IMG/VR virus record: IMGVR_UViG_3300033141_002782
Span: 1 to 24,483 of that record
DNA from: a virus
Strand: one strand, 5' to 3'
DNA: 24,483 bases
The notes beneath the pieces are model-generated. The model had not been told where the DNA came from and made no database searches. It saw only the letters and a list, made by a program, of their open reading frames with translations. Numbering within the stretch: the first letter of the stretch is position 1; each line of letters opens with the position of its first letter. The position numbers and the translations under genes were made by a program. Shown here in pieces: positions 1,794-20,989 of this stretch.

Positions 1794-4034
1794 ATGACAC
1801 TGATTGAGCGTGTTAACAAGCTGATGCCGGTTCGACGTGGGCGGCGTGTGCGCGGCGCCGTGCTGCCGGCTGAGCGCAAGCGATCACTGTTCGTATGGCC
1901 GGACTATCGCAGCGGCCAGCCTCTGCGTTGGGCTGTCGGAGACTTTAAGAACTACACGCACGAGGGATACGAGCGCAACTCGCTCATCTACTCGGCGATA
2001 CAGTACAAAGCGCGTGCTCAGCAGGCAGCGCCGCTGCGTGCGTACGGGGGCGATGCTAACCATCCCGAGCCGCTGGACGCCGACCATCCACTCGCGCAGA
2101 CGGTGGCGCGGCCGAACGAGTATCAGTCGTGGCCAGAGTTCCAAGGCGCGTGCGTCGTGTATCTGAATATCGCGGGCAACGCGTTTGTGCACGTGGACCG
2201 GCCGCGCGACCCGTCTGCGCCGCTGCGCCTGCGGCCACTGCGTCCGGACCGCGTGTACATTGTGCCTGACAATCGCAGAGGTGGCGCGGGGATCAAGGGC
2301 TACATTTACGTGCCTGAGGGCCGCGCACGCGAGGACGGTATGCCGATCTTGCCTAAGGATATGATGCACATTCGGCTGCCCAACCCGCTCGACCCGCTAG
2401 AGGGCATGGGATGGGGATTGTCGCCTCTGGCCCCGGTAGCCTACAGCGCTGACGTGGACAACTCGGTGAGCGACTACCTGCGTGACTTTTTTGAACATGG
2501 CGTAATGCCGACGGGGCTGCTCAAGGCCAGTCACGCTATCAGCGACAATGAGATTGAGCGCGCCAAGGAGAAGTGGCGCGAATTGTATGGCGGTCACGAC
2601 AACTGGGCCGACATCGCTGTCATGGGTGACGATATCGAGTATCAACGCCTATCACTCACGTTTGACGAGATGGGTTTTACCGGTCTCGACGAACGCAACG
2701 AGACGCGCATTGTGATGCCGTTCGGCGTGCCGCCAATCCTGCTCGGCTCACGGTATGGTCTAGCACGCTCGACGTACAGTAACTATTCTGAGGCCAAAGC
2801 CCAATTCTGGCAGGACACGATGCGGCCTGAGCTACAACTGTTCGAGGCTGAGTACCAGTTCTATCTGCAGGGCGAACACGGCGAGTTCGTTGCGTTCGAC
2901 TTTGGCGCGATACCCGAGTTGCAGGAGTCGAAAACAGAGGCCATCGACAACTACGTCAAACTGTTCGCAACCGGCGTGCCTCGTAGTGCGGCGGCTGAGG
3001 TGGCTGGCCTGGGGCTACCCGACTTGCCCGACGCCGACACGCAGTACATGACGGTGCAGTACCTGCCCATAGGCCAAGCGCGAGAGCCGGCCCCAGCGCC
3101 GAAGCCGACGAACGAGGGCGCACCAGAGGCTCAAGAGATGGCTGAGGACGAGGAAGAAGGTGCGAAAAGCGCACGTCCAACGTTCGAGGCAAAACAGCGG
3201 TATTGGCGCGCGTTCGATTGCACCGTGAGGGCCTGGCAGCGACGGTTCGCGCAGGCGGCAGAAGACGCGTTCGAGCATGACCGTCGTGAGGTGCTGGCCA
3301 TCGTGCGCGCCGCAAAGTCGGTCGCACTAAGCGAGAAGGCGACCGTGCGCTGGGAGACGCTCATTCAGGACCTACGCCAATATTTCTCGGGCAAGGGCCA
3401 GGAATACTGGCGTCAGGCGTTCGGGCCCGTCGTGCGAGGAGTTATCGAGGCGCAGGGCACGTCGTTGGAGATGCTGTACGGTATCGCGTGGGATGTAGAG
3501 AATCTGTTCGCACTGGAGTGGTACGCCGATTACATGCTCAAGTTCGCGCAGCCGATAACCAAAACATCTGCCGACCACCTAAGCGAGTTGCTGTACAACG
3601 CCGAGCGTGAGGGCGCCAGTATCGACCAGGCGACGCGGGATATAGGTGCGTTGTTCGAGGGCTGGATTACGGGCGCCGTGCCAGACGCGCCAGAACGGGG
3701 CTGGCTATTCGAGCGTCTGCCACTGCACCGGCGAGAGTTGATTGCGCGCACAGAGACGATTCGTGCTAGTAACGCGGGCAGCATGGCGCTGTATCGCGAG
3801 AACGCCGTCGAGCGCAAAGAGTGGCTCGCGACCGCCGATAATCGTACGCGTGATAGCCACTTGCAGGCGTGGGCCGACTATCGTGAGGGGGGCCGAATAG
3901 GGCCCATCCCGATAGACCAGCCGTTCATGGTCAACGGCATTGCGATGCAGTATCCCGGCGATCCGACTGCGCCAGTGGGTGAAGTGGTGAACTGTCGATG
4001 CACCGTGCTGCCGTATTTTGGCGAGGTGACGTAA
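1794..4034 (+). CDS. Portal protein fused to a C-terminal MuF-like head morphogenesis domain
   Basis: 746 residues, well above the roughly 400-500 usual for an HK97-type portal. Residues ~25-430 read as a phage portal: the dodecameric ring at the packaging vertex through which DNA passes (NSLIYSAIQYKA, FGVPPILLGSRYGLARSTYSN). A Pro/Glu-rich acidic linker follows at ~430-465, then a helical segment. Residues ~640-743 form a MuF-like minor head domain (LIARTETIRASNAGSMALY, WLATADNRTRDSH, ending NCRCTV). In most phages these are two genes. The ribosome binding site is weak. ATG 1794 is the first possible start, because TAG lies in frame four codons upstream. Confidence 0.93.
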   Translation: MTLIERVNKLMPVRRGRRVRGAVLPAERKRSLFVWPDYRSGQPLRWAVGDFKNYTHEGYERNSLIYSAIQYKARAQQAAPLRAYGGDANHPEPLDADHPLAQTVARPNEYQSWPEFQGACVVYLNIAGNAFVHVDRPRDPSAPLRLRPLRPDRVYIVPDNRRGGAGIKGYIYVPEGRAREDGMPILPKDMMHIRLPNPLDPLEGMGWGLSPLAPVAYSADVDNSVSDYLRDFFEHGVMPTGLLKASHAISDNEIERAKEKWRELYGGHDNWADIAVMGDDIEYQRLSLTFDEMGFTGLDERNETRIVMPFGVPPILLGSRYGLARSTYSNYSEAKAQFWQDTMRPELQLFEAEYQFYLQGEHGEFVAFDFGAIPELQESKTEAIDNYVKLFATGVPRSAAAEVAGLGLPDLPDADTQYMTVQYLPIGQAREPAPAPKPTNEGAPEAQEMAEDEEEGAKSARPTFEAKQRYWRAFDCTVRAWQRRFAQAAEDAFEHDRREVLAIVRAAKSVALSEKATVRWETLIQDLRQYFSGKGQEYWRQAFGPVVRGVIEAQGTSLEMLYGIAWDVENLFALEWYADYMLKFAQPITKTSADHLSELLYNAEREGASIDQATRDIGALFEGWITGAVPDAPERGWLFERLPLHRRELIARTETIRASNAGSMALYRENAVERKEWLATADNRTRDSHLQAWADYREGGRIGPIPIDQPFMVNGIAMQYPGDPTAPVGEVVNCRCTVLPYFGEVT

Positions 4035-4141: not shown

Positions 4142-5395
4142 ATGAGTGAGATGGAACACAAAACGCTGCGCACCGACACGGTGGTGGTAGATGAGGACAA
4201 AGGCATTGTCGAGGCGATATTCGCCGTGTTCGGCAACGTCGACATGGGCGGCGACCGGATTCATCCGGGTGCGTTCACCAAGACGTTCAGCGAGCGCGGC
4301 GGCAAGGTGAAGGTGCTCGACGCGCACAACACGAACTCGACGGCCAGCGCCGTCGGCAAAACGTTGGAGCTGCGCGAGGTTGGCCCTGATGCGCTGCCAG
4401 ACAAGACGCGGGCGATGTACCCAGAAGCGACAGGTGGCGCCTATGCCAAGATGCAGATATTGCTCGACACGCCCGAGGGGGCCGGCGTGTTCAAGCGCCT
4501 CAAGTCGGGCGTTATCGACGAGTGGTCTTTCGGCTACGACACGATTCAGCATGAGTACACGAAGGACGCCGAGGGCAACACGATTCGCGAGCTGAAGGAA
4601 GTACGGCTGCACGAGATATCGCCGGTGCTGTGGGGTATGAACGACGCCACGGCGACAGTGAGCGCGAAGGCCAAATGGAGCACCGCGTATATCAACGACT
4701 TGCCCGACAGCGCGTTTCTGTACATCGAGCCGGGCGGCGAGAAAGATGAGGAGGGCAAGACGGTCCCTCGCTCGCTGCGGCACTTCCCGTACAAGGACGC
4801 GAATGGCGATGTAGACCTACCACACCTGCGAAACGCCATTGCGCGAATCCCGCAAAGCAGCCTGAGTGACGACCTGAAGGAGCGCTTGCAGGCGCGCGCA
4901 CGGCGCATCCTGGAGCGCGAGAACGCGAAGGCACTTGAGGCGCAGGTGGCCGCGCTGACGAAGCGCGTCGAGGCGCTGGAGAGGAAGGAGCCATCGCTAG
5001 AGGAACGCCTACGGGCCCTAAACGAAGCTCTTGAAGAAGCTTACCCGCGCGATCCTGAGACGGGATATTGGCGCTACTACGTGCGGGAGACGTTTGACGG
5101 CTACGTGATTGTGGATGCCAGGGATGAGGAGTATGACTGTTACCGCGTCGCCTATAGCCGCAACGAGAACGGCGATATCACGTTCGCGCCGCGCGAGTCA
5201 TGGGTTGGCGGCACATACCAGTTTGTACCAGGGGCTAAAGCCGCCAGTGGAGCGGATAGCAATAGAGAGCGAGCGACTGACGAGGCCGGGCCGGTGAATC
5301 CACCCACCTCTGAGATGCTGACGACTCTCGAACTTGAGTTGGCAGAAATCGACCTATTGGAGGCGGATGATGGACTATCGGGAAAGACTAGCTAA
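4142..5395 (+). CDS. HK97-type prohead protease with extra C-terminal domains
   Basis: 417 residues, about twice a minimal prohead protease. Residues ~1-175 are the serine protease that trims scaffold and capsid during maturation, with probable catalytic His62 (VLDAHN) and Ser129 (DEWSFGY). Residues ~183-265 (YINDLPDSAFLYIEPGG, RSLRHFPYKDANG, LPHLRNAIARI) match a domain often appended to phage proteases. A coiled coil (~262-300) follows, then a small Tyr/Trp-rich module (YWRYYVRETFDGYVIVDA) and an acidic tail. The coiled coil may act as scaffold, since no separate scaffold gene is seen. I chose ATG 4142 with GGAGG nearby over an in-frame ATG at 4097 that lies inside the hairpin element. Confidence 0.9.
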   Translation: MSEMEHKTLRTDTVVVDEDKGIVEAIFAVFGNVDMGGDRIHPGAFTKTFSERGGKVKVLDAHNTNSTASAVGKTLELREVGPDALPDKTRAMYPEATGGAYAKMQILLDTPEGAGVFKRLKSGVIDEWSFGYDTIQHEYTKDAEGNTIRELKEVRLHEISPVLWGMNDATATVSAKAKWSTAYINDLPDSAFLYIEPGGEKDEEGKTVPRSLRHFPYKDANGDVDLPHLRNAIARIPQSSLSDDLKERLQARARRILERENAKALEAQVAALTKRVEALERKEPSLEERLRALNEALEEAYPRDPETGYWRYYVRETFDGYVIVDARDEEYDCYRVAYSRNENGDITFAPRESWVGGTYQFVPGAKAASGADSNRERATDEAGPVNPPTSEMLTTLELELAEIDLLEADDGLSGKTS

Positions 5396-6662
5396 GGCCA
5401 AGAGCCTGTTCACCGAGGCCCGCGCCATTCTCGAAAATGAGAAGGCGACGGCTGAGGACAAGGCGAAGGTCCCCAAGATGCTTGAGGACGCCAAGGCGCT
5501 AAAGGCCGAGGCCGCGCAGCTCAAAGACATCATGGAGAGCGGCGTTGATGAGTTGCTGAAGCAGGTTGAGGACAAGCAGAAGAACGACAAGGAGACCGGG
5601 AGCTCCGGCGAGTTCAAGGAGTGGGGCGACTTCCTGCAGGCCGCATTCAGGGCAGGCAGCCCGCGCTACAAAGGTCCACCGGACCCGCGTCTCGTGTGGT
5701 TCGAGGACGAAAAAGCGGCCGGCCACGAGCAGAAGGACATGGTGGAGAACGTCGGCGCGTCCGGCGGGTTCCTAGTGCCCACTGAGCAGATGAACGAGCT
5801 GCAGGGCGTGCTGGGCGAGAACGCAATCGTGCGGCCGCGCGCGACGATCATTCGTATGCGCAGGCGACAAATCTCTCTGCCCGTGCTCGACCAGACCGCT
5901 ACGACCTCAGGAATCCCGCACTGGTTCGGCGGTCTCCAGTTCTACTGGGCTGAGGAAGGGGCCGAGAAAACCGAGAGTGACGCCTCGTTCCGCGAGGTGA
6001 CGCTGAGTGCGCACAAGTTGATCGGCTACACGCGCGCCAGTGATGAGCTGGTGAGCGATGCGGCAATCTCTCTGGGCGACTTTCTGGCCGGCCCGATGGG
6101 GTTTGGCGGTGGTGTCCGGTGGATGGAGGACTATGCGTTCCTGCACGGCACGGGCGCTGGTCAGCCTCTCGGCGTGGTCAACGCGGGTGCGACCATCACG
6201 GTCAACCGTGCGGCAACCAACGCGATCGGATATGCCGACCTGTGCAATATGCTAGAGTCGTTCCTGCCCTCTGGGCGGGGCGTCTGGATCATTACGCAGT
6301 CGGCGCTGTCCGACCTCGTGCAGATGAGCGGCCCGACCGGCAACGCGTCCTATATCTGGGGCAGTGCCGTCGAGGGTGCGCCCAACCGACTGCTCGGATT
6401 GCCCGTAATCTGGTCAGAGAAGGCCAGCGCACTCGGGACTGCCGGCGACGTGATCCTGGCAGACTTCAACTACTATCTGCTCGGTGACCGCCAGGCCACG
6501 ACCGTAGAGTCCACACAGTATGACTACTGGCGATACGACAAGACCTCTTGGCGCGTCGTGCATCGAGTTGACGGCCAGCCGTGGCTGTCAGCCCCGCTCA
6601 CGTATCAGGACGGCAGCACGCAGGTGTCTCCGTTCGTGATTCTGGGCGACAAGTCCACGTAG
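5370..6662 (+). CDS. HK97-fold major capsid protein
   Basis: 430 residues. The N-terminal ~100 residues are a charged coiled coil (RERLAKAKSLFTEARAIL and on), the delta/scaffold region normally removed by the protease. The capsid fold starts near GASGGFLVPTEQMNEL and continues through the typical QPLGVVNAGA, RLLGLPVIWSE and DVILADFNYYLLGDRQ segments. The gene overlaps the protease gene by 26 bases. Of two adjacent ATG codons (5367, 5370) the second is better spaced from GGAGG (5359-5363). The product should be the most abundant protein of the virion, and the gene is flanked by hairpins on both sides of the protease-capsid unit. Confidence 0.96.
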   Translation: MDYRERLAKAKSLFTEARAILENEKATAEDKAKVPKMLEDAKALKAEAAQLKDIMESGVDELLKQVEDKQKNDKETGSSGEFKEWGDFLQAAFRAGSPRYKGPPDPRLVWFEDEKAAGHEQKDMVENVGASGGFLVPTEQMNELQGVLGENAIVRPRATIIRMRRRQISLPVLDQTATTSGIPHWFGGLQFYWAEEGAEKTESDASFREVTLSAHKLIGYTRASDELVSDAAISLGDFLAGPMGFGGGVRWMEDYAFLHGTGAGQPLGVVNAGATITVNRAATNAIGYADLCNMLESFLPSGRGVWIITQSALSDLVQMSGPTGNASYIWGSAVEGAPNRLLGLPVIWSEKASALGTAGDVILADFNYYLLGDRQATTVESTQYDYWRYDKTSWRVVHRVDGQPWLSAPLTYQDGSTQVSPFVILGDKST

Positions 6663-6729: not shown

Positions 6730-7161
6730 ATGGCCTATATGGAGCGGTTCACTGAACACGCGGCGTTGCTGGCGACCATTGACCCCGCATCCTACAGTAC
6801 TGAGCAGAACACGGGGTACGTGTCGCTGGCGAACTATCACCGCGCTGTGGTGCTGATTCACTGTGGTGTCATCGGCGGCAACCTTGATATCGACATCGAG
6901 CAGGCCACCGACACCAGCGGGACCAGCGCCAAGTCGTTCGATAGCGGCGGAAAGGACATCGCGAAAACGGCAACAACGGACAACAACACGGTCTCAGCAA
7001 TCGAGATTCGCAACGAGGAACTGGACATCGCTAACAAGTTCGATTGCATCAATGTCGAGGTCACGCCGGCCTCGGCCGGCATCTTCGGCGTTCAGGTGTA
7101 CGGACTTGCCCCACGGTTCAAGCCGGTTCCTACGACCAATCTGGACACCGTGACTGACTAG
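6730..7161 (+). CDS. Probable capsid decoration or head-stabilising protein
   Basis: 143 residues, starting at ATG 6730 after GGGAGGAAAC. It has the pattern of a protein widely found directly after the capsid gene: TEQNTGYVSLANYHRAVVLIHCG near the N-terminus, a central beta-rich part with DIDIEQATDTSGTSAK, and a C-terminal VQVYGLAPRF segment. No signal peptide or membrane helix is visible. The position between capsid and connector genes, with a hairpin on each side, fits a high-copy capsid surface protein. The decoration role is inferred from context and pattern. A minor head protein is the alternative. Confidence 0.7.
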   Translation: MAYMERFTEHAALLATIDPASYSTEQNTGYVSLANYHRAVVLIHCGVIGGNLDIDIEQATDTSGTSAKSFDSGGKDIAKTATTDNNTVSAIEIRNEELDIANKFDCINVEVTPASAGIFGVQVYGLAPRFKPVPTTNLDTVTD

Positions 7162-7218: not shown

Positions 7219-7836
7219 GTGTGGGTTCAACTGCTGTCGGTAAAACAGATTGAAGTTCGCGGCGTTTCGCGCACCTACCACGCCGGCGACTGGGTAGAGG
7301 TTGGACGCCACATCGCGACCCAATGGCTGGCCGACGGTTCGGCGCGCACGATGCCGGCGGAGTTGGCGCGCAACCTGCCCGGTTGTGGCGTCGTGTTGAC
7401 CGGCGACGGTGCTGCGCCTGGCCTGCAGGATGCGCTGGACGTGATGCGGGGCGAGCCGTCCCTGCCGTACCCTCGTACCCTCATCTGGGACCCTGCGCAA
7501 ACGCTGCGACGCGAGTTACTGCCAAGCGGCTTTCATCTGCTCGACACATGGGACGCGGCCTGTCCTCTGTACGATTATAACCTGCTGGCGCGTGACTACG
7601 GAGACGAGTCTGATCGTGCTCAGACGGCAGCAGTGATACGAGACCTACGGGTGATGCTGTACGAGCCGCGCGTACTGTTCGTGCGCCGGTGTGAGGCGTC
7701 GCTGCGGTTGGTGGAGACGTGGCAGAAGGAACGAGAGCGGGGCGACGACCGGCTGGCGTTCCTGCGTGCGTTCTATCGGGTGAAGCCGCGATTGTGCGCG
7801 TTACCGGTGACGTGGATCGGGAAGCAGGTGGAGTGA
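7219..7836 (+). CDS. Phage N-terminal domain fused to a degenerate GT-A glycosyltransferase-like domain
   Basis: 205 residues, starting at GTG 7219 behind GAGGAGG. Residues 1-~55 (YHAGDWVEVGRHIATQWLADG) look like a small domain I associate with phage structural regions. From about residue 86 the protein aligns by eye with the two GT-A domains downstream: TLIWDPAQ matches TLYLDADT, SGFHLLDTWDAA matches NGFALLADGWDMA, and VLFVRRCEASLRLVETW matches VLFWRRNEATTRLFERW. The catalytic DxD is replaced (D91 remains in WDPAQ, the second Asp is lost) and the N-terminal nucleotide-binding half is missing. It is probably not an active transferase and may be a scaffold or target adapter. Confidence 0.7.
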   Translation: MWVQLLSVKQIEVRGVSRTYHAGDWVEVGRHIATQWLADGSARTMPAELARNLPGCGVVLTGDGAAPGLQDALDVMRGEPSLPYPRTLIWDPAQTLRRELLPSGFHLLDTWDAACPLYDYNLLARDYGDESDRAQTAAVIRDLRVMLYEPRVLFVRRCEASLRLVETWQKERERGDDRLAFLRAFYRVKPRLCALPVTWIGKQVE

Positions 7837-7847
7837 GAGGAGACGCC

Positions 7848-7991
7848 GTGTCCGAGAAGGAGTTACTACGCCAGATTGAGGAGTTGCGGCGGCGCGTACG
7901 TGAGTTGGAGGCCGATGTGCAGCGGTTGCGCAGTTGCGAGCAAGGGCCGCACTACATCACCAAGTGGCCGCCGGAGATGGAGCGAAAGTGA
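7848..7991 (+). CDS. Small coiled-coil protein, 47 residues
   Basis: GTG at 7848 follows GAGAGGAGA with good spacing, and the stop overlaps the next GTG start as GTGA, so it appears translationally coupled to the glycosyltransferase. Residues 2-~30 (EKELLRQIEELRRRVRELEA and on) form an Arg/Glu-rich leucine heptad coiled coil. The tail has one Cys and ends KWPPEMERK. It may help the neighbouring enzyme oligomerise or tether. No known family is recognised. Confidence 0.65.
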   Translation: MSEKELLRQIEELRRRVRELEADVQRLRSCEQGPHYITKWPPEMERK

Positions 7992-8611
7992 CCCGTGGTG
8001 TCGTCTACGTCGCCTACGGGGAGCCGGCACGAGCAGAAGCGCGGGCGAGTATCGCGTCTCTGCGCCAGCACAACGACCTGCCCGTGAGTGTGATTGCGGA
8101 AGAGCCGATAGCGGGCGTGGCGCATATCCCGTTTGCCGACGGCCATCCGGGGGCGCGCTGGGCGAAACTGAACGCCGATCGCTTGTCGCCGTACGACGAT
8201 ACACTCTATCTCGACGCAGACACGCGGGTACACGGCGACGTGAGTAACGGGTTTGCGCTGCTGGCCGACGGCTGGGATATGGCACTCACGGCGTCACGGT
8301 CACAGGGCAGCGCAGCGTTCTGGCATCTGTCGCCAGATGATCGCCAGGAGACCTACGGTGTGGTTGGGCCGATAGTGGTGCAATTACAGGGCGGCGTGCT
8401 GTTCTGGCGACGCAACGAGGCAACGACGCGGCTATTCGAGCGGTGGCGCGCAGAGTGGGCACGCTATCGACAGCAGGACCAAGGCGCACTACTGCGAGCG
8501 CTCTACACTGAGCCGGTGCGCGTGTGGTTGCTGGGGCGACCGTGGAACGGCGGCAATCTAATAGAGCATCTGTGTGGACGTGCGAAACGATGGCCGAGAG
8601 ACACACACTGA
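7988..8611 (+). CDS. GT-A fold glycosyltransferase (stand-alone copy)
   Basis: 207 residues from GTG 7988, which forms a GTGA overlap. The N-terminus TRGVVYVAYGEPARAEARAS is the first strand-loop-helix of a GT-A nucleotide-sugar fold, DAD (76-78, in TLYLDADTRV) is the metal-binding DxD, and VQLQGGVLFWRRNEATTRLF plus QQDQGALLRALY follow as in GT8-like enzymes. It should transfer a sugar from a nucleotide donor. The acceptor is unknown. Unlike the paralogous domain downstream, it ends early after WNGGN with a different tail and lacks the IVHHQ segment, so activity is less certain. It overlaps the next gene by 22 bases. Confidence 0.8.
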   Translation: MTRGVVYVAYGEPARAEARASIASLRQHNDLPVSVIAEEPIAGVAHIPFADGHPGARWAKLNADRLSPYDDTLYLDADTRVHGDVSNGFALLADGWDMALTASRSQGSAAFWHLSPDDRQETYGVVGPIVVQLQGGVLFWRRNEATTRLFERWRAEWARYRQQDQGALLRALYTEPVRVWLLGRPWNGGNLIEHLCGRAKRWPRDTH

Positions 8612-10218
8612 ACGTACACATCGTCTGTCGAGACGCGAATAGCAACTGGATCTGCGCACGACTAGCGCAGCATCTCGTGCGCGTCAACGGCTGGAGCATC
8701 GGCGACCAACCGCGCAGAGACGTGGACGTGAATGTGTACTTTCCCTATCTCGAGTACGTCAACTGTGGACGGTTCGCCGACACGCTGACTGTGGGTTGGT
8801 TCACCCACCGGGAGACGCAGCGACCGGCCAAGGTCACTATGTACGACGAGACGGCGAGTGCCGTAGATTTGCGCGTGACGCCCTCAGCGATGTGCGCGGC
8901 AGACTTGAGTAAGCACGGGGCGACGGCGCACATCCCGCACCCGATAGAGTTGGATCTGTTCACGCTGGGCGCACGGCCGGCAAACGAGCGGCCGACGATA
9001 GGCGTGTCTGGTACCGTCTACCAGGGCGGCCGCAAGGGTGAGTGGATGGTGCAGCGGCTGGCGTTCGAGCATCCTGAGTGGCACGTTATCGCGTCGGGCA
9101 AGGGCTGGCCCGTGGAGACGACGTGGCGTGAGTGGAGCGAGATGCCGGCCTATTACCGCAGCCTCGATGCGTATCTGTGCACGTCACTCTGCGAGGGAGG
9201 ACCCGTACCACCGTTCGAGGCGCTGGCCTGTGGCACGCCAGTTGTGGTACCCTCTGGTGTCGGCCAGATGGACGAGTTGCCTGAACGCGCCGGTATCCGC
9301 CACTATCCCGCAGGCGACTATGACGCGATGGTGGGCGCAATCGAGCGCGTACTGGCTGACGATATCGGCGGCCTTCGCGCTGTGGCCGCGCAGTACACGG
9401 TGCAGCGTTGGTGTGACGCTTGGTTGCTGGCGCTAGAGCACCTGGCGACGCCGGCAGAGGACGAGACGCGACCTGACTGGCGCGGGCGTGCCGGCGTGTA
9501 CGTCGTGGCCTATGGCGGGCCGTCACGCAAGTGTGCGCGTCGCTGCATAGAGAGCGTGCATCGACACATGCCCGGCGTACCCGTGGCGCTGGCGTCTGAG
9601 GCGCCACTGGGTCCAGAGGACGTCTATCTCGATGAGCCGGACGCCGATATCGGCGGACGCAGCGTGAAGACGCGTGTCTACGACGTGACGCCAGCAGAGT
9701 GGGCGTATGCGCTCTATCTCGACGCCGATACTGAGTTGACCGCGCCTGTGCCGTACCTATTCGACGCGCTGCAGGACGGGTTCGATATGTGCATCTGCAC
9801 GAATCCGGGGAAGTACCACGTCACAACGCAGATGTACAGACCGGACAACCGCGACGAGGTAGATACGACATTTGACGAGATTGGCGCGCAAGAGTTAGAG
9901 CAGTTGCAGGGCGGCGTGTTCTCGTTCTATCGCAACGAGCGCACAGCGACGCTGCTCAGAGCGTGGCATACTGAGTGGCAGCGATGGGGCAAGCGCGACC
10001 AGGGCGCGCTACTCAGAGCGATGTACAAACACCCGGTGCGTCTGAATCTGCTTGGCATTGAGTGGAATACGAGCAACCGGTATCCGGCCCCCAACGGTAC
10101 GGCCGGTATCGTACATCACCAGATGGAGGCGCGGCGGCACGCCGGCATAGTCTGGGGGCGCAATGACAGTGAGGAGGCGTGGGCGGCCGTGCACAAGTGG
10201 GAGGCGGGGCAACGGTGA
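8590..10218 (+). CDS. Two-domain glycosyltransferase: GT-B (GT4-like) followed by GT-A
   Basis: 542 residues. Residues 1-~290 form a GT-B enzyme: IPHPIELDLFTLG, IGVSGTVYQGGRKGEWMVQ and the donor-site motif CEGGPVPPFEALACGTPVVV (~200-218, with the family's Glu). Residues ~300-525 form a GT-A domain (VYVVAYGGPSRKCARR, DAD at 378-380, ELEQLQGGVFSFYRNE, DQGALLRAMY, IVHHQMEARR) that is a clear paralogue of the preceding gene. Each half could add one sugar, giving a two-step product. ATG 8590 has a weak ribosome binding site, and an in-frame GTG at 8572 is the alternative. The stop overlaps the next GTG start. Confidence 0.88.
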   Translation: MAERHTLNVHIVCRDANSNWICARLAQHLVRVNGWSIGDQPRRDVDVNVYFPYLEYVNCGRFADTLTVGWFTHRETQRPAKVTMYDETASAVDLRVTPSAMCAADLSKHGATAHIPHPIELDLFTLGARPANERPTIGVSGTVYQGGRKGEWMVQRLAFEHPEWHVIASGKGWPVETTWREWSEMPAYYRSLDAYLCTSLCEGGPVPPFEALACGTPVVVPSGVGQMDELPERAGIRHYPAGDYDAMVGAIERVLADDIGGLRAVAAQYTVQRWCDAWLLALEHLATPAEDETRPDWRGRAGVYVVAYGGPSRKCARRCIESVHRHMPGVPVALASEAPLGPEDVYLDEPDADIGGRSVKTRVYDVTPAEWAYALYLDADTELTAPVPYLFDALQDGFDMCICTNPGKYHVTTQMYRPDNRDEVDTTFDEIGAQELEQLQGGVFSFYRNERTATLLRAWHTEWQRWGKRDQGALLRAMYKHPVRLNLLGIEWNTSNRYPAPNGTAGIVHHQMEARRHAGIVWGRNDSEEAWAAVHKWEAGQR

Positions 10219-11087
10219 GGGTGGCGCTGGTTCACCGAGACAACCCGCGCTGTATCGAGCGCATGGGCGGTGCGTTCTGCTACGACGTGCCTGAGTTTGA
10301 GGTGACGCATTTCCCCACGGCGAAGTTCGGCGTGGTGGACAGAAACGAGTTGGCCGACGCTGGTTACGACGTCATCTACTATGAGGACGGCAAATGCTGG
10401 CCGACGTTTGAGGGCGATGCCGATATTCCGGTCATCTACCAGGTGCAGGACAGCACGCTTTCAGAGGAGCACTATCGTCTGCGTTACGAGAAGGCGGCTG
10501 AAGTCGCCGATCTGGTGCTGGTGGATTGGGACGACCTGACGCGATTCGAGGGTGTGGGCGCGCCGGTTCGCCGCCTGTCGTACAGCGTGAACGATTGGCT
10601 GTTCTGTGACTATGGCCTAGAGCGCGACATCGACGTGGCGTTCCTCTGCCACACCAAGGACTGTCCTGCGCGTGCGGCGCTGGACGTGCAATTGACCGAC
10701 CTATGCCTGCGACGCGGCTGGGAGTACGAGTCGGGCACGCGGTTGGGGCGGCGGTATGCGCAGGCGTTTAACCGAGCGCGCGTGTGTGTGCACATGGAGC
10801 GGACGCCGACAACGCGGGCGCATCGCGTATTCGATGTGATGGCGGCTCGATCGTGCCTGCTCACCAGCGTGCAGCCGTACGTGTCGGGCGAGGAACAGGT
10901 TGCGGGCGTCCACTACGTAGACTATGAGACCCCGGCCGAAATAGATGAGCGGTTGGCGTGGCTGCTTGACTCCGGCGCATGGGAGACGATAGCGGATGCG
11001 GGGCACGAATACGTGATGACGCATCACACGTGGAGCGTGCGGGCGCGAGAGTTGCGCGACATGATCCGAGAGGAACTGGGGCTTTGA
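10215..11087 (+). CDS. CgeB-like GT-B glycosyltransferase
   Basis: 290 residues from GTG 10215 (GTGA overlap, GGGAGG upstream). The N-terminal half (MRVALVHRDN, DVIYYEDGK, ADLVLVDWDDL) is an alternating alpha/beta domain. The C-terminal half has the shape of CgeB/Glyco_trans_1_2 proteins: DIDVAFLCHT, YAQAFNRARVCVHME, RAHRVFDVMAARSCLLTS and a closing THHTWSVRARELRDMI helix. It is a probable glycosyltransferase with unknown donor and acceptor, the third in a row. It overlaps the radical SAM gene by TTGA, so the two are probably translated together. Confidence 0.8.
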   Translation: MRVALVHRDNPRCIERMGGAFCYDVPEFEVTHFPTAKFGVVDRNELADAGYDVIYYEDGKCWPTFEGDADIPVIYQVQDSTLSEEHYRLRYEKAAEVADLVLVDWDDLTRFEGVGAPVRRLSYSVNDWLFCDYGLERDIDVAFLCHTKDCPARAALDVQLTDLCLRRGWEYESGTRLGRRYAQAFNRARVCVHMERTPTTRAHRVFDVMAARSCLLTSVQPYVSGEEQVAGVHYVDYETPAEIDERLAWLLDSGAWETIADAGHEYVMTHHTWSVRARELRDMIREELGL

Positions 11088-12067
11088 GAGAATCGCCGAT
11101 AGCGCCAACGCAGAAGATACTGAGATTCCCCGAGACGCTGCGGCGGCTGCAGACGGGCGAACGCGTCTGGCCGCTGCACGTGGAGATGGACCTGTCTGAC
11201 CAATGCAACCTGCGCTGTGCCTGGTGTCGATTCGCAGACCGCCTCGGTGAGGCAACGGTGGACCTGCCGTTCGCACGGTCCGTGCTCGACCAGTTGCGCG
11301 CTGTGGGTGTGCGCGCGGTGACGTTCTCCGGTGGTGGGGAGCCGACACTATGCCCAGCATTCGCGACGATTGCGCGCTACGCGGCGAGCATCGGGCTGGA
11401 CGTGGGCATCTACTCCAACGGCACGAATACGCGTGCGCTGCTGGACGCGGCCGACGTGTGCGAGTGGATATACGTCAGCCTCGACGCGGTGAACGCGGCT
11501 CAGTACGAGGCCATCAAGCACAAGCCATACTACGACCGCGTGTGTGAGTCTGTTCGTAGACTATCTGCGCGTGATTGCATCGTCGGCGTCGGTTTTCTCA
11601 TTACCGGCGAGAACTGGCGCGACGCCGAGCGCATGGCAATGTTGGCGGGCAGCCTCGGCGCTGATTATTGCCAACTGCGCGCATGTGCCGGTCTCGACGA
11701 TTATAGCTGGGTGCCGGTCGCGCTACCGTGGCTAGAGCACCTGGCTGGGCCACGTACGCTCATCTACAGTCGGAGATTCCGCGACCTGTACGACGCGTGG
11801 TCCGGCACATATGAGCGTGGGTACACCGTCTGTCGTGGCTCTGAGATTGTGCCCGCTATCACGGCCGACGGTATGGTGTGGGTATGCCCGAACACGCGAC
11901 GGCTGCGGCCGCTGGGCAATCTGCGCGAGGAGCCATTCACGGCAATCTGGGAGCGCCGCGCGGAGCAGCACGTGGGCGACGACTGCGAGCCGACCTGCCG
12001 CAATCATGCGCTGAATCGCACGCTAGAGTACGTTTGTTCGCAGCATTTGCACGAGAGGTTTGTGTGA
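11084..12067 (+). CDS. Radical SAM enzyme with SPASM/twitch-like C-terminal cysteines
   Basis: 327 residues, with TTG 11084 overlapping the upstream stop and GAGG before it. CNLRCAWC (Cys41, Cys45, Cys48) is the 4Fe-4S/SAM motif, and FSGGGEPTL (81-89) is the SAM-binding GGE motif. SNGTNTRALL, IYVSLDAVNAAQYEAIKHK and VGFLITGENW follow the TIM-barrel order of the family. The C-terminus has Cys250, Cys268, Cys301, Cys305 and Cys318 (TVCRGSE, WVCPN, CEPTCRNHALN), enough for an auxiliary cluster. SPASM-type enzymes modify peptides or sugars. The neighbours favour a sugar or glycan substrate, but this is inference. A start further upstream would run into the previous gene. Confidence 0.9.
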   Translation: MRESPIAPTQKILRFPETLRRLQTGERVWPLHVEMDLSDQCNLRCAWCRFADRLGEATVDLPFARSVLDQLRAVGVRAVTFSGGGEPTLCPAFATIARYAASIGLDVGIYSNGTNTRALLDAADVCEWIYVSLDAVNAAQYEAIKHKPYYDRVCESVRRLSARDCIVGVGFLITGENWRDAERMAMLAGSLGADYCQLRACAGLDDYSWVPVALPWLEHLAGPRTLIYSRRFRDLYDAWSGTYERGYTVCRGSEIVPAITADGMVWVCPNTRRLRPLGNLREEPFTAIWERRAEQHVGDDCEPTCRNHALNRTLEYVCSQHLHERFV

Positions 12068-12082
12068 GAGAGGAGGGGGACG

Positions 12083-12466
12083 ATGTTCGAGAGAATGCTT
12101 GAGGCTATAGGTGGGCCGCCCAAAATCGAGATCACCATTGAGCCAGAAAAGACATGTGCGATAGTGGCGCTTCGTGTTCGAGTCTCGTGTACCTATACGC
12201 CTGGGGCTTCTGGTGAGGCAGAGAGTAGTTGGCCGAAACACGCGCCTGCAGAGGAAGTCGAAACGCGCATTGCGTTGGCGCTGAGCATGGCCTATGCCCG
12301 TATGCTCGATGCTAGACGCCAATACTACGAACGGGAAGAGCAAGAGGACAACCCGTTTGTTGAAGAGCGAAAGCGCTTCCCATATATCGGCGAGTTGGGT
12401 GCCGCAGGCGATCTGAGCATCGAGACTCTTACTGGAGACGACAAGAATGCCGCAATCGCATCCTGA
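12083..12466 (+). CDS. Hypothetical protein, 127 residues, inside the sugar cargo block
   Basis: ATG 12083 follows a strong GAGGAGGGGG site, and the gene overlaps the dehydrogenase gene by 20 bases. The first half has a beta-strand pattern (KIEITIEPEKTCAIVALRVR), the middle is a helix (RIALALSMAYARMLDARRQY) and the C-terminal part is acidic. No catalytic motif, signal peptide or membrane segment is visible. By eye its codons look a little less GC-rich than its neighbours. I do not recognise it. Confidence 0.75.
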   Translation: MFERMLEAIGGPPKIEITIEPEKTCAIVALRVRVSCTYTPGASGEAESSWPKHAPAEEVETRIALALSMAYARMLDARRQYYEREEQEDNPFVEERKRFPYIGELGAAGDLSIETLTGDDKNAAIAS

Positions 12467-13307
12467 GGTCGTAAATCGACAACCGCGCACGCTCATTGTG
12501 GGCTATGGCCACGTGGGCCAACAGATTGGGCGTTACTTCACCGAGGCCGACTGGGTAGATGAGCACAACATCATCTGCCGCGTCGCCGATAACGAGGTTG
12601 CAGACGTTACGCCGCACTGGGCCGTCGGCGGCTCTGTCGTAACACATCTGACGCGAAATGGCGAGCCGTTCACGTACGACCTGGCGTTTATCTGTGTGCC
12701 GACGCCAGAGGGCGAGGGCGGGCGGTGTGATACGTCGCTAGTGCGCTGTGTCTATCATTGCTGGAACGCCGTGGCGCGGTACTGGTGCATCAAGTCCACG
12801 GTAGAGGTCGGCACAACAGCGTCGCTTGGTGGCGCGGTCTGTTTCTCGCCCGAGTACTACGGCGAGACGCTGGGGCATCCGTTGGCCGGAGCGCCTAGAG
12901 ACACGTTTGTCATTCTAGGCGGACCGCGTGACGTGACGCGCGTATTCGCTGAGGCGTGGACGCTGGTAACCAACTCCTATACGCGTATCTACCAGACAGA
13001 TAGCCGCACGGCGGAACTCTGCAAACTGGCTGAGAACGCATGGATAGCGACTAAGGTCACGTTCTGCAGCGACCTGAGACGTATTGCCGAAAACGCGCAT
13101 ATTGATTGGCACGAACTGCGTGAGTTGTGGCTGGCTGACCCGCGTATATCGCGTAGCCACACCTATGCCTATGCCGACAACCCGGGGTGGGCTGGCAAGT
13201 GTATACCGAAGGACACTGCAAACCTATGCGCGTGGACGCGGGCCCTGGGACAACCAGCGCGACTGTTGGAGGCCGTGCGGGAGGTTAATCGTGCGCATCG
13301 AGAATAG
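12447..13307 (+). CDS. Shortened UDP-glucose/GDP-mannose dehydrogenase family protein
   Basis: 286 residues. The family oxidises a nucleotide sugar to its uronic acid with two NAD+. NAD-binding GYGHVG is at 19-24, and AFICVPTP and KSTVEVGTT (Thr118) follow. SPEYYGET (Glu136), AELCKLAENAW (Lys193, Asn197) and GWAGKCIPKDT (Cys252, Lys255, Asp256) supply the usual catalytic residues. The protein stops where the third, UDP-binding domain of the usual ~390-450-residue enzyme would begin. It may therefore need a partner or use another substrate. GGAG precedes ATG 12447. It overlaps the methyltransferase start by 17 bases. Confidence 0.88.
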   Translation: MPQSHPEVVNRQPRTLIVGYGHVGQQIGRYFTEADWVDEHNIICRVADNEVADVTPHWAVGGSVVTHLTRNGEPFTYDLAFICVPTPEGEGGRCDTSLVRCVYHCWNAVARYWCIKSTVEVGTTASLGGAVCFSPEYYGETLGHPLAGAPRDTFVILGGPRDVTRVFAEAWTLVTNSYTRIYQTDSRTAELCKLAENAWIATKVTFCSDLRRIAENAHIDWHELRELWLADPRISRSHTYAYADNPGWAGKCIPKDTANLCAWTRALGQPARLLEAVREVNRAHRE

Positions 13308-13923
13308 CAGCGCAGAGGACATTCTCTGCAGGCTCTATGACTATCACAGTGAGTTGCCCGAGGTGCTGACGCGGGTACGTGAGCGCGTAGTGCAATCCAA
13401 GCGCGAGATTAGCGAGTACCAGGCTGCGGCGCTCTACGCACTTGCGCGGCCGTTTGACGGTGGGTGCGTGCTGGAGATAGGGACGGCGTTCGGCTATTCA
13501 GCGTCGGTACTAGCCGAGGCGTGTCCGCAGGCGCAGATTGTGACGCTGAATCCAAAAGAGAAAGAGTATCCACATGCTGTGAAGGCGCTGAGCGCGTATC
13601 CCAACGTGACGCCGCTGATGGTGCGGTCGTGGGATTATCTCGCGCAGTATGACGGGAAGCCACTGAGCCTGGTCTGGGTAGATGGCGACCACGAGCGCGT
13701 CAGGCGTGATTTCCCTTGGTGGAATCACCTGCATGTTGGCGGGCTCATGCTGTATCACGACTATTCGCCAGCGGATTCATGGCGACCAACCGTGTGCGTA
13801 TACGACGCGCTGAACGAATTGCGCGAGCAGATGGGGCGCGACTTTGACGTGCTGATAACGGACGACGGCGGCGTAGGTATGTGCGGCTGGTATCGCCGTG
13901 AGGGTGAGACGTATGGCGAATGA
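13291..13923 (+). CDS. Class I SAM-dependent methyltransferase (Methyltransf_24-like)
   Basis: 210 residues from GTG 13291, which lies inside the end of the dehydrogenase gene with GGGAGG before it. Motif I is VLEIGTAFGYSAS (60-72), and LVWVDGDHERVRRDF (127-141) and GGLMLYHDYS (150-159) provide the Asp/His pattern of small O-methyltransferases of this family. In this setting a sugar O-methylation is plausible, though the acceptor cannot be read from the sequence. It is the last gene of the cargo block and overlaps the connector gene by 11 bases. An in-frame ATG far upstream (13084) lies fully inside the dehydrogenase gene and was rejected. Confidence 0.87.
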   Translation: MRIENSSAEDILCRLYDYHSELPEVLTRVRERVVQSKREISEYQAAALYALARPFDGGCVLEIGTAFGYSASVLAEACPQAQIVTLNPKEKEYPHAVKALSAYPNVTPLMVRSWDYLAQYDGKPLSLVWVDGDHERVRRDFPWWNHLHVGGLMLYHDYSPADSWRPTVCVYDALNELREQMGRDFDVLITDDGGVGMCGWYRREGETYGE

Positions 13924-14569
13924 CTATGCGACAATAGTGGAGTTAAAGGCCGAGTTGCAGAAGACTGACAGCGACGATGACGCCAGTCTGCAGCGGGTTC
14001 TAGACGCGGCGGCGACGCATATCGATCGGTATTGCAACCGGCCTGATGGGTTTGTGGCCAATAGCACCGCCTCCGCGCGGTACTACCCTGGTTCCGGCGG
14101 CAAGTACCAGCGCATTGACGAGTGTATTGCGGTGACAGCCGTTGCGGTCAAAGATGCCGCCTTTGATGATGAGGACGCGTATGAGACATGGACGTTGGGC
14201 ACGATCGGCAGCACAACGGAAGCAGATGTGTTCCCGGCGACGGGTAGCGAGAAGTGGCCTGAGTACAACCGCACACCGTACACTCTGCTGGTCATTGGCG
14301 CCAACGGTGACTATACGCTGTTCCCGCACGACATCTACGGCCGGCCGACGGTTCAGGTGACGGCAAAATGGGGCTATGCGGAAACGGTGCCCGACGACAT
14401 TAAGACGGCGACGATTATGCAAGCGGCGCGCTGGTGGAAGCGGTTACAGATAGCGATGGCCGACGCGACCGGCGGCGGAGAGTTGGGCGTGCTGCTCTAC
14501 CGACAGCGGCTGGACCCTGATATCGCCGCCATTCTGGATGACGGCGGATACCGGCGGCTGGTCGTATGA
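13913..14569 (+). CDS. Head-tail connector (gp6-like adaptor)
   Basis: 218 residues from ATG 13913. The N-terminal helices (YATIVELKAELQ, LQRVLDAAATHIDRYCNRP) are typical of phage head-tail connector proteins, which form a ring under the portal. The middle is an insert of beta structure with PTVQVTAKWGYAETVPDDIK, and the C-terminal helix TATIMQAARWWKRLQIA also matches the family. It marks the return to standard virion genes after the cargo block. It ends in an ATGA overlap with the next gene. Confidence 0.85.
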   Translation: MANDYATIVELKAELQKTDSDDDASLQRVLDAAATHIDRYCNRPDGFVANSTASARYYPGSGGKYQRIDECIAVTAVAVKDAAFDDEDAYETWTLGTIGSTTEADVFPATGSEKWPEYNRTPYTLLVIGANGDYTLFPHDIYGRPTVQVTAKWGYAETVPDDIKTATIMQAARWWKRLQIAMADATGGGELGVLLYRQRLDPDIAAILDDGGYRRLVV

Positions 14570-15848: not shown

Positions 15849-15904
15849 AGCGTCCAGAACGCCTATATCAGCGCCAGAGAGCGCCAGCATTGGGCGTTTT
15901 TGTG
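15849..15904 (+). promoter_or_regulatory. Structured RNA element, copy B, in front of the tail-tube gene
   Basis: In the 93-base gap before the tail-tube gene, AGAACGCC (15856-15863) pairs with GGCGTTTT (15893-15900), with one G-U pair. The overlapping upstream arm AGCGTCCA (15849-15856) can also pair with TGGGCGTT (15891-15898) using wobbles. An inner GCGC/GCGC stem (15871-15874, 15881-15884) sits in the loop. Five T's and GTG follow, then GGAGGA (15911-15916). The layout and much of the sequence match copy A at 4063-4127. Confidence 0.6.
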
Positions 15905-15925
15905 CGTTATGGAGGAATAGGAACA

Positions 15926-16378
15926 GTGGCACAGGCAACAGGAGTAGAGACGTTCAAAGACTGCAAGGTCGAAACGAGCACTGACGGTAGCACCTGGACC
16001 GACATTAGCGGGTACGCCAGCAGTGTCGCGGTGGACGGGTTCGAGCGGGCGCAGGGCGAGGCGTACACGTTCGATGGCGACTATCCAATCGTCGGCACGG
16101 GCAAAATGCAGCGCGGCACGGTTACCGTGAGAATTGCCTATACCGAGGGTGAGAGCGATCCATTCAAAGCCGCGTGGGACGCGTACGAGGGGAACACACA
16201 ACTGCAGGTGCGCTACTGGCCTGAGGGTGGCGACACGGGCGAGTTCGGGTTCTATACCGACACCGATAGCCGCATCGTTGCGCCGCCAACCGTCGCGGGC
16301 GAGGCGAACAGCGCCGATCCGATAATGGTCGAGTTTCAGGTGGTATCGAAGCGCCTGCAGCGTACGACCGCTACGTGA
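15926..16378 (+). CDS. Major tail tube protein
   Basis: 150 residues from GTG 15926, nine bases after GGAGGA. The sequence (VETSTDGSTWTDISGYASSV, GTVTVRIAYTEG, LQVRYWPEGG, YTDTDSRIVAPP) is a beta-rich tail-tube pattern. Its place just before the G/GT chaperone pair is where the tube gene is normally found. The structured RNA element upstream fits a gene needing high output. A close paralogue forms the C-terminal part of the product of 20375-20989. I rejected an in-frame TTG at 15890 because it lies inside the hairpin. Confidence 0.82.
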   Translation: MAQATGVETFKDCKVETSTDGSTWTDISGYASSVAVDGFERAQGEAYTFDGDYPIVGTGKMQRGTVTVRIAYTEGESDPFKAAWDAYEGNTQLQVRYWPEGGDTGEFGFYTDTDSRIVAPPTVAGEANSADPIMVEFQVVSKRLQRTTAT

Positions 16379-19415: not shown

Positions 19416-20375
19416 ATGGCGTTTATGGCTGATTTCGGCACAGGCTGGGAGCACGGCGCGATACCAACGCAGGCAGGAGAGCTGACTGATACCTATAGCT
19501 ATTCTGTTTCCGCTACGAATCCGCACTCAGGCAGCTACAAATTAACGTCCTTCAGTACGAGTGGGCGCTATTGCCGCTCGCTGCCAACTGCGCGCAGTGA
19601 TCTGTATATGAGTATCTGGGTCTACGGTACAGCGTATTCGCGCGTGCAGTTTCGCAGCAGCGACACAAACGTCATAGAACTCCGCCGAGACGCGGACGGC
19701 TATTGGGACGCCTATGTCAACAACTCGAAAGTCGCCGACGGGAGCATAGCCGTCAATCACGGTGTTTGGCATCGCCTGTCGTGTCACATTGTCGTAAGCG
19801 ATTCCGGCACCATCGCCACCAAAATCGACGGTATCGACGATCTGTCGTATAGCGGGGATACTCTGGTCTCGTCCTACAGCACAATCGACGCGATACGCCT
19901 GTACGGGGACACGGGTTGGGACGACTTCGTAGTCGGCTCTGGCGGCTGGCCTGGCGACTGGCGATTCGCTGGCCTCACCGTCAACAGCGACGTCGTGGCG
20001 GCATGGACGCCCAGCACAGGCACTGACAACTACGCCTGTGTGGATGAGGTGCCCGCGAGCGATACCGATTACGTCAGCATCACGTCTGACGCGACGGACC
20101 AGTACGGGTGCAGCGATTTCGATGACGATAGCGGCAACCGCGTGCCGGGGCTCGTGATGGCGTGGGCAAAGGTGAAAAAGTCCGACGCTGGCACGGACGA
20201 CAAAATCACACTCGGTCTTTCGGATGGCGTGAACAACGACGATGGCAGCGCACAGAGCGTGCTCACAACGTACGAGTATCGGTATCTGGCAAAAAACACT
20301 GCGCCAGACGGAGGCGCGTGGACTGACACTGACGTGGATAACCTAGAGGTTCGCCTAATCGGAGATATCGTCTAG
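19416..20375 (+). CDS. Tail protein with a concanavalin/LamG-like lectin domain
   Basis: 319 residues. Residues ~1-175 read as a jelly-roll carbohydrate-binding domain: SATNPHSGSYKLTSFS, DLYMSIWVYGTAYSRVQFR, GVWHRLSCHIV and DAIRLYGDTGWDDFVVG show the strand order of LamG-type folds. Residues ~190-319 (STGTDNYACVDEVPASDTDY, PGLVMAWAKVKKSDAGTDDK, GGAWTDTDVDNLEVRLI) form a second beta domain common in phage tail proteins. It may contact cell-surface sugars. ATG 19416 lies 12 bases after GGAGG, and ATG 19425 is an alternative. It shares one base with the next gene. Confidence 0.75.
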   Translation: MAFMADFGTGWEHGAIPTQAGELTDTYSYSVSATNPHSGSYKLTSFSTSGRYCRSLPTARSDLYMSIWVYGTAYSRVQFRSSDTNVIELRRDADGYWDAYVNNSKVADGSIAVNHGVWHRLSCHIVVSDSGTIATKIDGIDDLSYSGDTLVSSYSTIDAIRLYGDTGWDDFVVGSGGWPGDWRFAGLTVNSDVVAAWTPSTGTDNYACVDEVPASDTDYVSITSDATDQYGCSDFDDDSGNRVPGLVMAWAKVKKSDAGTDDKITLGLSDGVNNDDGSAQSVLTTYEYRYLAKNTAPDGGAWTDTDVDNLEVRLIGDIV

Positions 20376-20989
20376 TGACTACACTTACGACGTCACACGT
20401 ATCCGCAGAGGTCGGGTACGAGAAACAGGGCGCGCAAACGCTCTCGACGTCACACGTATCCGCAGAGGTCGGGTACGAACATTGCGCCAACCAGGTGCTC
20501 ACCGTATTGCAGGTGTTCGTTGAGATCGGGTATTACCCTAGGCCCAAAATCATCGTTCCCCTCGAATGCAATGGCGCGCTAGAGGTGAGCACAGATGGCA
20601 GCACGTGGACAGATATCAGCGGCTACTCCTGCGCTGTCGAATGGGATGGGTTCGAGCGACATGTGGGCGAAGCGCAGCCGTACGACGACGACGCGCCGGT
20701 GGTGGCAGTGGGCAAGCGGCAGCCAGGCACTATGACGGTGCGAGTGGCATATACAGAGGGTGCGGCCGACGTGTTCAAGACGGCGTGGGACGCGTGGCAG
20801 AACAACTCACAACTGCAGCTACGTTACTGGCCTGGAGGTGGGGACGCGAGCGACCAAGGGCTCTACACTGATACCGATAGCCGCGTCATTGCGCCGCCAC
20901 GGGTGCAGGGCGCAGCACACGAGGGAGACCCGATAACAGTGACGTTCAGCGTCGTGACCGGACGCCTCCAACTGGCGACACACACATGA
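20375..20989 (+). CDS. Second tail-tube paralogue with a repeat-bearing N-terminus
   Basis: 204 residues from GTG 20375. Residues 1-~55 hold three repeats of about 19 residues, two nearly identical (TSHVSAEVGYE) and one diverged (LQVFVEIGYY). Residues ~69-204 are clearly homologous to the tail-tube protein at 15926-16378: STDGSTWTDISGY, WDGFER, TVRVAYTEG, LQLRYWPGGGD and YTDTDSRVIAPP all recur. The gene stands between the lectin-like protein and the hub. It is probably a minor tail-tip protein derived from the tube gene. The short repeats resemble linker motifs I associate with phage tail proteins. Confidence 0.8.
   Translation: MTTLTTSHVSAEVGYEKQGAQTLSTSHVSAEVGYEHCANQVLTVLQVFVEIGYYPRPKIIVPLECNGALEVSTDGSTWTDISGYSCAVEWDGFERHVGEAQPYDDDAPVVAVGKRQPGTMTVRVAYTEGAADVFKTAWDAWQNNSQLQLRYWPGGGDASDQGLYTDTDSRVIAPPRVQGAAHEGDPITVTFSVVTGRLQLATHT
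20388..20478 (+). repeat. Two perfect 34-base direct repeats, 57-base period
   Basis: Positions 20388-20421 and 20445-20478 are identical, starting CGACGTCACACGTATC and ending GGTCGGGTACGA. The period is 19 codons, so the repeats stay in frame and encode TSHVSAEVGYE twice. The perfect DNA identity implies a recent duplication or ongoing homogenisation. A third copy downstream is recognisable only at protein level. Confidence 0.92.

Follow-up and report, generated by a model that had tools for sequence, protein, structure and literature searches.

The segment from 7,219 to 13,923 of the window (the whole stretch of 24,483 nucleotides of viral DNA analyzed here) appears to be a modular glycan-assembly island, located in the late virion operon of uncultivated siphoviruses that form a widespread group, and acting on one or more virion proteins. 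We assign this reading a probability of about 0.68. That these genes could build, tailor and attach an unusual glycan, as a sequence-only reading of the DNA had proposed, is well supported by the identities of the genes and by an enrichment of sugar-related domains in the island. The virion as the target, the other half of that proposal, we infer from the strong linkage to the capsid and decoration genes and from finding neither membrane export genes nor markers for DNA modification or O-antigen conversion.

Eight plausible genes, rather than the nine counted earlier, lie on a single strand in this segment and mostly overlap by 4-22 nt. Gene starts were set by Shine-Dalgarno sites or by homology to the starts used in relatives, and those of c2, c3, c4, c5, c8 and the connector gene listed below are revised. 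The overlapping starts described in the sequence-only reading are real, but their large extents came from longest-ORF starts and were exaggerated; ribosome-binding sites and the starts of homologs rule out huge overlaps. The overlapping of reading frames suggests coupled expression. Domain or profile matches recovered every element that had been named in a block of sugar genes between decoration-type and connector genes:

5334 to 6662, plus strand: major capsid protein, HK97-type, the upstream anchor of the island (phrog_10, E 1.7e-52)
6730 to 7161, plus strand: decoration-type gene directly upstream of the island (phrog_28483, which has no PHROG function; role assumed from position)
7219 to 7836, plus strand: c1, pseudo-glycosyltransferase with an N-terminal module of about 45 aa and a shrunken GT-A fold (Shine-Dalgarno AGGAGG 8 nt upstream)
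7988 to 8611, plus strand: c2, GT8-like GT-A glycosyltransferase (invariant DxD, Asp and C-terminal His; Foldseek)
8590 (approximate start) to 10218, plus strand: c3, bifunctional GT4 (GT-B) and GT-A glycosyltransferase (PF00534, E 5e-10; DAD motif)
10215 to 11087, plus strand: c4, GT4-like glycosyltransferase (PF13524, E 7e-12)
11084 (approximate start) to 12067, plus strand: c5, radical SAM/SPASM enzyme (Radical_SAM PF04055, E 2.5e-17; SPASM PF13186, E 6e-6)
12083 to 12466, plus strand: c6, small protein with no family assigned
12447 to 13307, plus strand: c7, nucleotide-sugar dehydrogenase without the C-terminal domain (PF00984 central domain, E 3.5e-21)
13291 to 13923, plus strand: c8, SAM methyltransferase, Methyltransf_24-type (E 1.2e-11)
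13913 to 14569, plus strand: head-tail connector, the downstream anchor of the island (PF05135; phrog_442, PHROG head-tail adaptor)

In most relatives the decoration-type gene separates c1 from the capsid gene, and a profile search of solved structures gave no relative of its protein.

Domains, motifs and fold identified c2, c3 (which carries two domains) and c4 as the three glycosyltransferase genes that had been predicted. The AF2 model of c2 (pLDDT 94.9) has a GT-A fold and Foldseek matched it to LARGE1, UGGT, LgtC and glycogenin with E values of 1e-8 to 1e-7 (best GT-A match, E 8.5e-9), while its score of 12 bits against Pfam GT8 is below the cut-off of 24.3. Residues D76, D78, D164 and H194 of c2 are invariant in 62 sequences. 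In c3, the C-terminal half is paralogous to c2 and bears a DxD, and the DAD of this GT-A domain is kept in A3 and in 44 of 45 relatives.

The first gene of the island, c1, had been taken for a degenerate relative of these transferases. A decaying gene is ruled out, since the family is conserved and its loss of DxD is uniform: the motif expected of an active GT-A enzyme was missing at the aligned site in all of the 62 sequences of the c1 alignment. No patterns suited to scanning genomes came out of this alignment. The c1 profile matches c2 (probability 98.9, E 1.4e-17), and the AF2 model of c1 (pLDDT 94.4) is without the first two long helices seen in the nucleotide-binding half of the c2 model. 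No family was found for c1 in Pfam or PHROGs and no tblastn match in 50,697 phage records. Its N-terminal module resembles small free-standing phage proteins, among them a DUF7210 protein; a matching 64-aa protein of phage Charlie fits gp10, within the head-tail connector block of that phage. Judged from these comparisons, c1 is a conserved pseudo-glycosyltransferase, a DxD-less paralog of c2 fused to a phage head-block-type module.

The radical SAM enzyme, shortened UDP-sugar dehydrogenase and methyltransferase reported earlier are all present in Pfam searches as c5, c7 and c8. Homologs of c4 occur in about 26 contigs. The c5 protein has the CX3CX2C core and the SPASM cysteines, and both of its Pfam domains exceed the cut-off; relatives are found in loci L020/L040, L064, L021 and L022. 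No relative of c6 was found among the fetched loci. The NAD-binding N-domain of c7 falls just below the cut-off of 27 (24.7 bits, E 2e-5), and the NAD-binding and active-site positions GxGxxG, KLAEN (Lys/Asn) and GKCIPKD (Cys/Asp) are kept. The protein ends after the central domain, and a UDP-binding C-terminal domain was not found. The activity of c7 is uncertain because this domain usually binds the nucleotide sugar. A truncated ortholog, 61% identical, is present in L020, while the homolog in L056 is full length. The set of radical SAM enzyme and truncated dehydrogenase had been thought distinctive, but the pair recurs in L020.

A search for the same gene order in relatives, one of the checks suggested for this DNA, recovered the order capsid, decoration, c1, c2, c3 in dozens of contigs, so the arrangement is not due to chance. 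In a capsid-driven search, c1 lay downstream of the capsid and decoration genes in 72 of the 74 relatives that could be evaluated from the sequence available, a figure that describes this clade and not all phages because the capsid query alignment was built mostly from c1-bearing contigs and the contigs are not fully independent. A c2-like glycosyltransferase was present in 57 of the 60 contigs having at least 2.5 kb past c1, and a GT4 c3 in 38 of the 43 having at least 5 kb. The block had been described as cargo; it is present, but it is not a one-off acquisition, and its front genes are near-constant companions of this type of capsid. Evidence for co-evolution with the capsid gene is limited to this conserved order, since correlations of pairwise distances with the capsid gene were weak (0.13 for c1 and nil for c2; the protease and decoration genes themselves reached only 0.18). 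In Bradyrhizobium phage ppBdUSDA122-1 the slot is empty, and the capsid gene and decoration homolog are followed by the PF05135 connector.

In the relatives c1 usually precedes c2 and c3, and then comes a phage-specific part; islands complete from c1 to the connector gene (n=23) spanned 2.6-13.7 kb. The phage-specific part contained methyltransferases, sulfotransferases, epimerases and other glycosyltransferases and sometimes a radical SAM/SPASM enzyme with a UDP-sugar dehydrogenase. Among 92 variable island ORFs, domain matches were to Methyltransf_24 (20), glycosyltransferases, sulfotransferases (3), epimerases, TylF and radical SAM; no such sugar domains were seen in 92 matched ORFs outside the islands, which had just virion and housekeeping domains. 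The island was found in about 90 distinct uncultivated contigs as opposed to none of the sequenced phage records searched. One 7.1 kb island contig was inside an Anaerolineae MAG, a possible pointer to the host, although low-coverage contigs can be misbinned. A search of 396 Anaerolineae genomes gave two more with weak or partial matches, too few for Anaerolineae to be named as the host.

The recurrence of the front part beside the capsid gene, together with finishing enzymes that differ from phage to phage, suggests that the particles of these phages carry a coat of varied sugar chains made by the phages themselves. In the mechanism we propose, the front genes c1, c2 and c3 would initiate and lengthen a sugar chain on one of the virion proteins encoded in the operon; the likeliest candidates are the neighboring decoration protein, the capsid protein and c1. 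The c1 protein may be a non-catalytic adaptor or acceptor, whose head-block-type N-terminal module would recruit the soluble transferases to their substrate on the virion. Further extension and decoration would then fall to the variable genes; in this phage c4 would add a sugar, c7 might oxidize a nucleotide sugar in the direction of a uronic acid, c5 might alter a sugar and c8 might methylate one. By analogy with mycobacteriophages, such a glycan might mask the particle from antibodies. A bolder version, which we consider rather doubtful, makes c1 a virion-resident glycan carrier in which the dead c2 paralog and the head-block module serve as a glycogenin-like primer. In that version each particle would be anchored to a surface polysaccharide specific to its lineage, and phages would exchange the composition of this polysaccharide in the manner of a capsule locus.

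Phage glycosyltransferases often modify the surface glycans of the host in lysogens. Modification of the host surface by such enzymes has also been proposed for other phages (PMC10202952). Superinfection exclusion or serotype conversion by the island during infection is unlikely. Variable tailoring would fit variable host surfaces, and a place in the late operon could also suit enzymes whose target is the host as infection ends. However, a GtrA-type flippase and a tyrosine integrase were found in 0 of 15 large relatives (44-100 kb, records that may be incomplete), which argues against Gtr conversion; just 2 of 179 island ORFs had even one crude hydrophobic segment; and the island has a fixed position beside the capsid and decoration genes, not near a lysogeny module.

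Still less probable is an accessory-gene hotspot, with morons acquired singly and sharing no joint pathway. The strong differences in gene content across phages and the weak distance correlations would fit such a history, but the content and order of c1, c2 and c3 are kept in most contigs, identifiable variable genes are almost exclusively sugar-related and the overlaps point to coupled expression. A small glycosidic metabolite or a nucleotide sugar as the product of the island, used within the infected cell (to counter host defence, for instance), is very unlikely. Nucleotide-sugar and radical SAM enzymes are also known in natural-product pathways, and the solved radical SAM structures nearest c5 include DesII and cytosylglucuronate decarboxylase, yet this leaves the late virion location and the head-block module of c1 unexplained. 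Glycosylation of modified bases in the phage DNA has the slimmest chance, for phage glycosyltransferases can act on hydroxymethylated bases (as in T4) but no thymidylate-synthase-family protein that could be the hydroxymethylase was found in the 15 large relatives, sulfotransferases, epimerases and multiple O-methyltransferases are atypical of DNA modification, and c2 resembles GT8-like enzymes acting on proteins and glycans.

On the best reading, then, the island is a new form of phage virion glycosylation, of a kind known from a few cultured phages. If so, virions in part of the virosphere may carry glycans as a standard trait that changes fast, with sulfation or methylation in some lineages. 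The c1 protein would represent a new family of pseudo-enzymes in a capsid-coupled island, and the set to be expressed for a direct test is small, namely c1, c2, c3 and the decoration protein.

Mycobacteriophages are an established case of virion glycosylation by phage glycosyltransferases (Freeman et al. 2023, as cited in PMC12363180 and PMC11256854), and the latter two sources give capsid and tail-tube proteins of Che8, Corndog and Myrna as accepted targets. Like these phages, the island encodes its own glycosyltransferases (c2, c3 and c4). None of the three had a tblastn match to transferases of characterized phages among the 50,697 records, and we therefore claim functional likeness, not membership by descent. 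The same sources describe one or two glycosyltransferases (Che8 gp110, Corndog gp38; in the related Maravista near the genome end), whereas the island is multi-enzyme, fixed beside the capsid gene and equipped with a pseudo-glycosyltransferase. The Gtr serotype-conversion cassettes also encode glycosyltransferases, but neither a GtrA-type flippase nor a membrane-protein set was found here. LgtC, glycogenin, LARGE1 and UGGT share the fold, DxD and C-terminal His of c2, which differs from GT8 enzymes in its sub-threshold Pfam score and in having as partner c1, a paralog that has no DxD and carries a phage module. Microbacterium phages encode UDP-glucose dehydrogenases (Jayden gp85, 261 aa, for example) that are short like c7 and lie beside a glycosyltransferase, but these are about 30% identical to c7 and are encoded near the right genome end, not in the virion block. 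The unrelated Podovirus sp. ctQWt234 (MW202801), a phage of another type, has genes for a radical SAM enzyme (26% identical to c5 over 88% of the query), a glycosyltransferase, PhyH, a methyltransferase, NodB and a second glycosyltransferase just after its capsid gene; it is without c1, c2 and c3 and has the PhyH and NodB-like genes in addition.

Domain and profile annotation places the late block of an HK97-type siphovirus on this uncultivated virus record (24.5 kb), in the order terminase part, portal-MuF fusion, protease, capsid protein, decoration-type gene (named from its position beside the capsid gene), sugar genes, connector, neck and tail. The sugar genes fill 6.7 kb after the decoration-type gene and before the connector.

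1-1119: terminase large subunit, partial; N-terminal Walker A part absent
1794-4034: portal and MuF-like head morphogenesis domain, fused in a single 746-aa ORF
7219-13923, plus strand: sugar island, genes c1 to c8
15890-16378 and 20375-20989: two copies of a tail-tube-like protein, 62% identity over 137 aa

The partial terminase gene has an in-frame stop immediately before position 25, at the edge of the contig. Portal and MuF-like domain are separate in some relatives (e.g., loci L040 and L064 on other contigs). The second tail-tube-like copy, sited after the tape-measure region, carries a fused N-terminal block of imperfect repeats.

The sugar-modification block that the sequence-only reading had placed among the virion genes is real, its domains being found by search between the decoration-type and connector genes. 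The proposed enzymes were all supported: three glycosyltransferase genes encoding four domains between them, a methyltransferase, a radical SAM/SPASM enzyme and a nucleotide-sugar dehydrogenase that lacks the C-terminal domain. The plausible genes number eight rather than nine, but the overlapping starts held, mostly at 4-22 nt between neighbors when starts were picked by ribosome-binding site or homolog alignment.

A profile search of the viral collection with c1, the first island gene, gave 93 relatives, of which 80 were kept. The shared gene order that the earlier reading had suggested looking for recurs in contig after contig by HMM mapping: protease, capsid, decoration, c1, c2, c3, variable genes, connector and neck. 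Because this search had started from c1, it was repeated from the capsid protein. c1 lay downstream of the capsid gene in 72 of 80 capsid-driven loci; six ended too early and two did not pass, one of them (L130) having a weak match at its end. This count describes the clade, since not every contig is independent and c1-bearing phages supplied most of the capsid query. Among 94 distinct c1 loci, a c2-like gene was present in 57 of the 60 that extend 2.5 kb or more past c1 and the GT4 gene, c3, in 38 of the 43 that extend 5 kb or more; 23 islands were complete (2.6 to 13.7 kb). The sugar island is more general than one sequence had made visible. It is dispensable in a distant lineage, since Bradyrhizobium phage ppBdUSDA122-1 has capsid and decoration homologs and an empty slot. 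Locus L004 (10985-15045) has a 59% capsid relative and the decoration gene, and no c1; its stretch past the decoration gene seems unrelated and in part of low complexity, perhaps an assembly fault. The sole match in a genome collection was a low-coverage 7126-base contig of an Anaerolineae (Chloroflexota) MAG, ordered protease-capsid-decoration-c1-c2-c3 as in other relatives, which is a weak hint of the host.

The variable part of the islands is sugar chemistry. Pfam matches among 92 variable ORFs included 20 Methyltransf_24 and three sulfotransferases, with further methyltransferases, GT families, epimerases, TylF and radical SAM. In the same scan, 92 ORFs outside the islands on the same contigs had none of these sugar families; they matched domains of capsid, protease, portal and tail proteins, plus a few housekeeping ones. 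Single relatives carry sulfotransferase, cupin, SDR epimerase, GT2 and nucleotidyltransferase genes. A GH113-type glycoside hydrolase ends the island of locus L020 (12704-14254).

c1 had been taken for a degenerate glycosyltransferase relative. That description did not survive: the family is conserved, and DxD is missing at the aligned site in all 62 members. Profile alignment joins c1 to c2 (probability 98.9, E 1.4e-17) with DPA opposite the DxD site of c2, whereas DxD is kept in 59/64 c2 and 44/45 c3 sequences. The c1 structure model is confident (pLDDT 94.4); the two long helices that come first in the nucleotide-binding half of the c2 model are missing from it. Residues 1-45 match small free-standing phage proteins. 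One of these bears the name DUF7210; another, from mycobacteriophage Charlie, has a length (64 aa) that fits gp10, which is encoded among the head-tail connector genes. Caulobacter phage W2 gp7, sited between capsid and connector, has a similar stretch, judged only from an alignment and by eye. No Pfam or PHROG family matched c1 at a meaningful score, nor did any of 50,697 phage records.

The c2 model (pLDDT 94.9) matched LARGE1, UGGT, LgtC and glycogenin, and the invariant D76, D78, D164 and H194 are consistent with a GT8-like enzyme that depends on metal. The c7 dehydrogenase keeps its active-site motifs and lacks the C-terminal domain. This short form is conserved, as the 61% identical L020 ortholog is truncated likewise; the dehydrogenase of locus L056 is full-length. 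The nearest solved relatives of c5, the radical SAM enzyme, include the sugar-acting DesII and cytosylglucuronate decarboxylase, at modest E-values. Related genes lie inside the L020/L040 and L064 islands, near the capsid gene in locus L021 and directly after it in podovirus MW202801.

On our best reading, suggested by gene content and linkage, soluble enzymes would glycosylate one or more virion proteins, with core genes conserved and tailoring genes exchangeable between phages. Linkage points to a virion target through the fixed site beside the capsid and decoration genes and the head-block module of c1. Also counted toward it are the near absence of membrane proteins from the islands and the lack of GtrA, tyrosine integrase and thymidylate synthase in 15 large relatives. 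The most novel feature may be the role of c1. In mycobacteriophages, capsid and tail-tube proteins are glycosylated by phage transferases (Freeman et al. 2023, as cited in PMC12363180 and PMC11256854).
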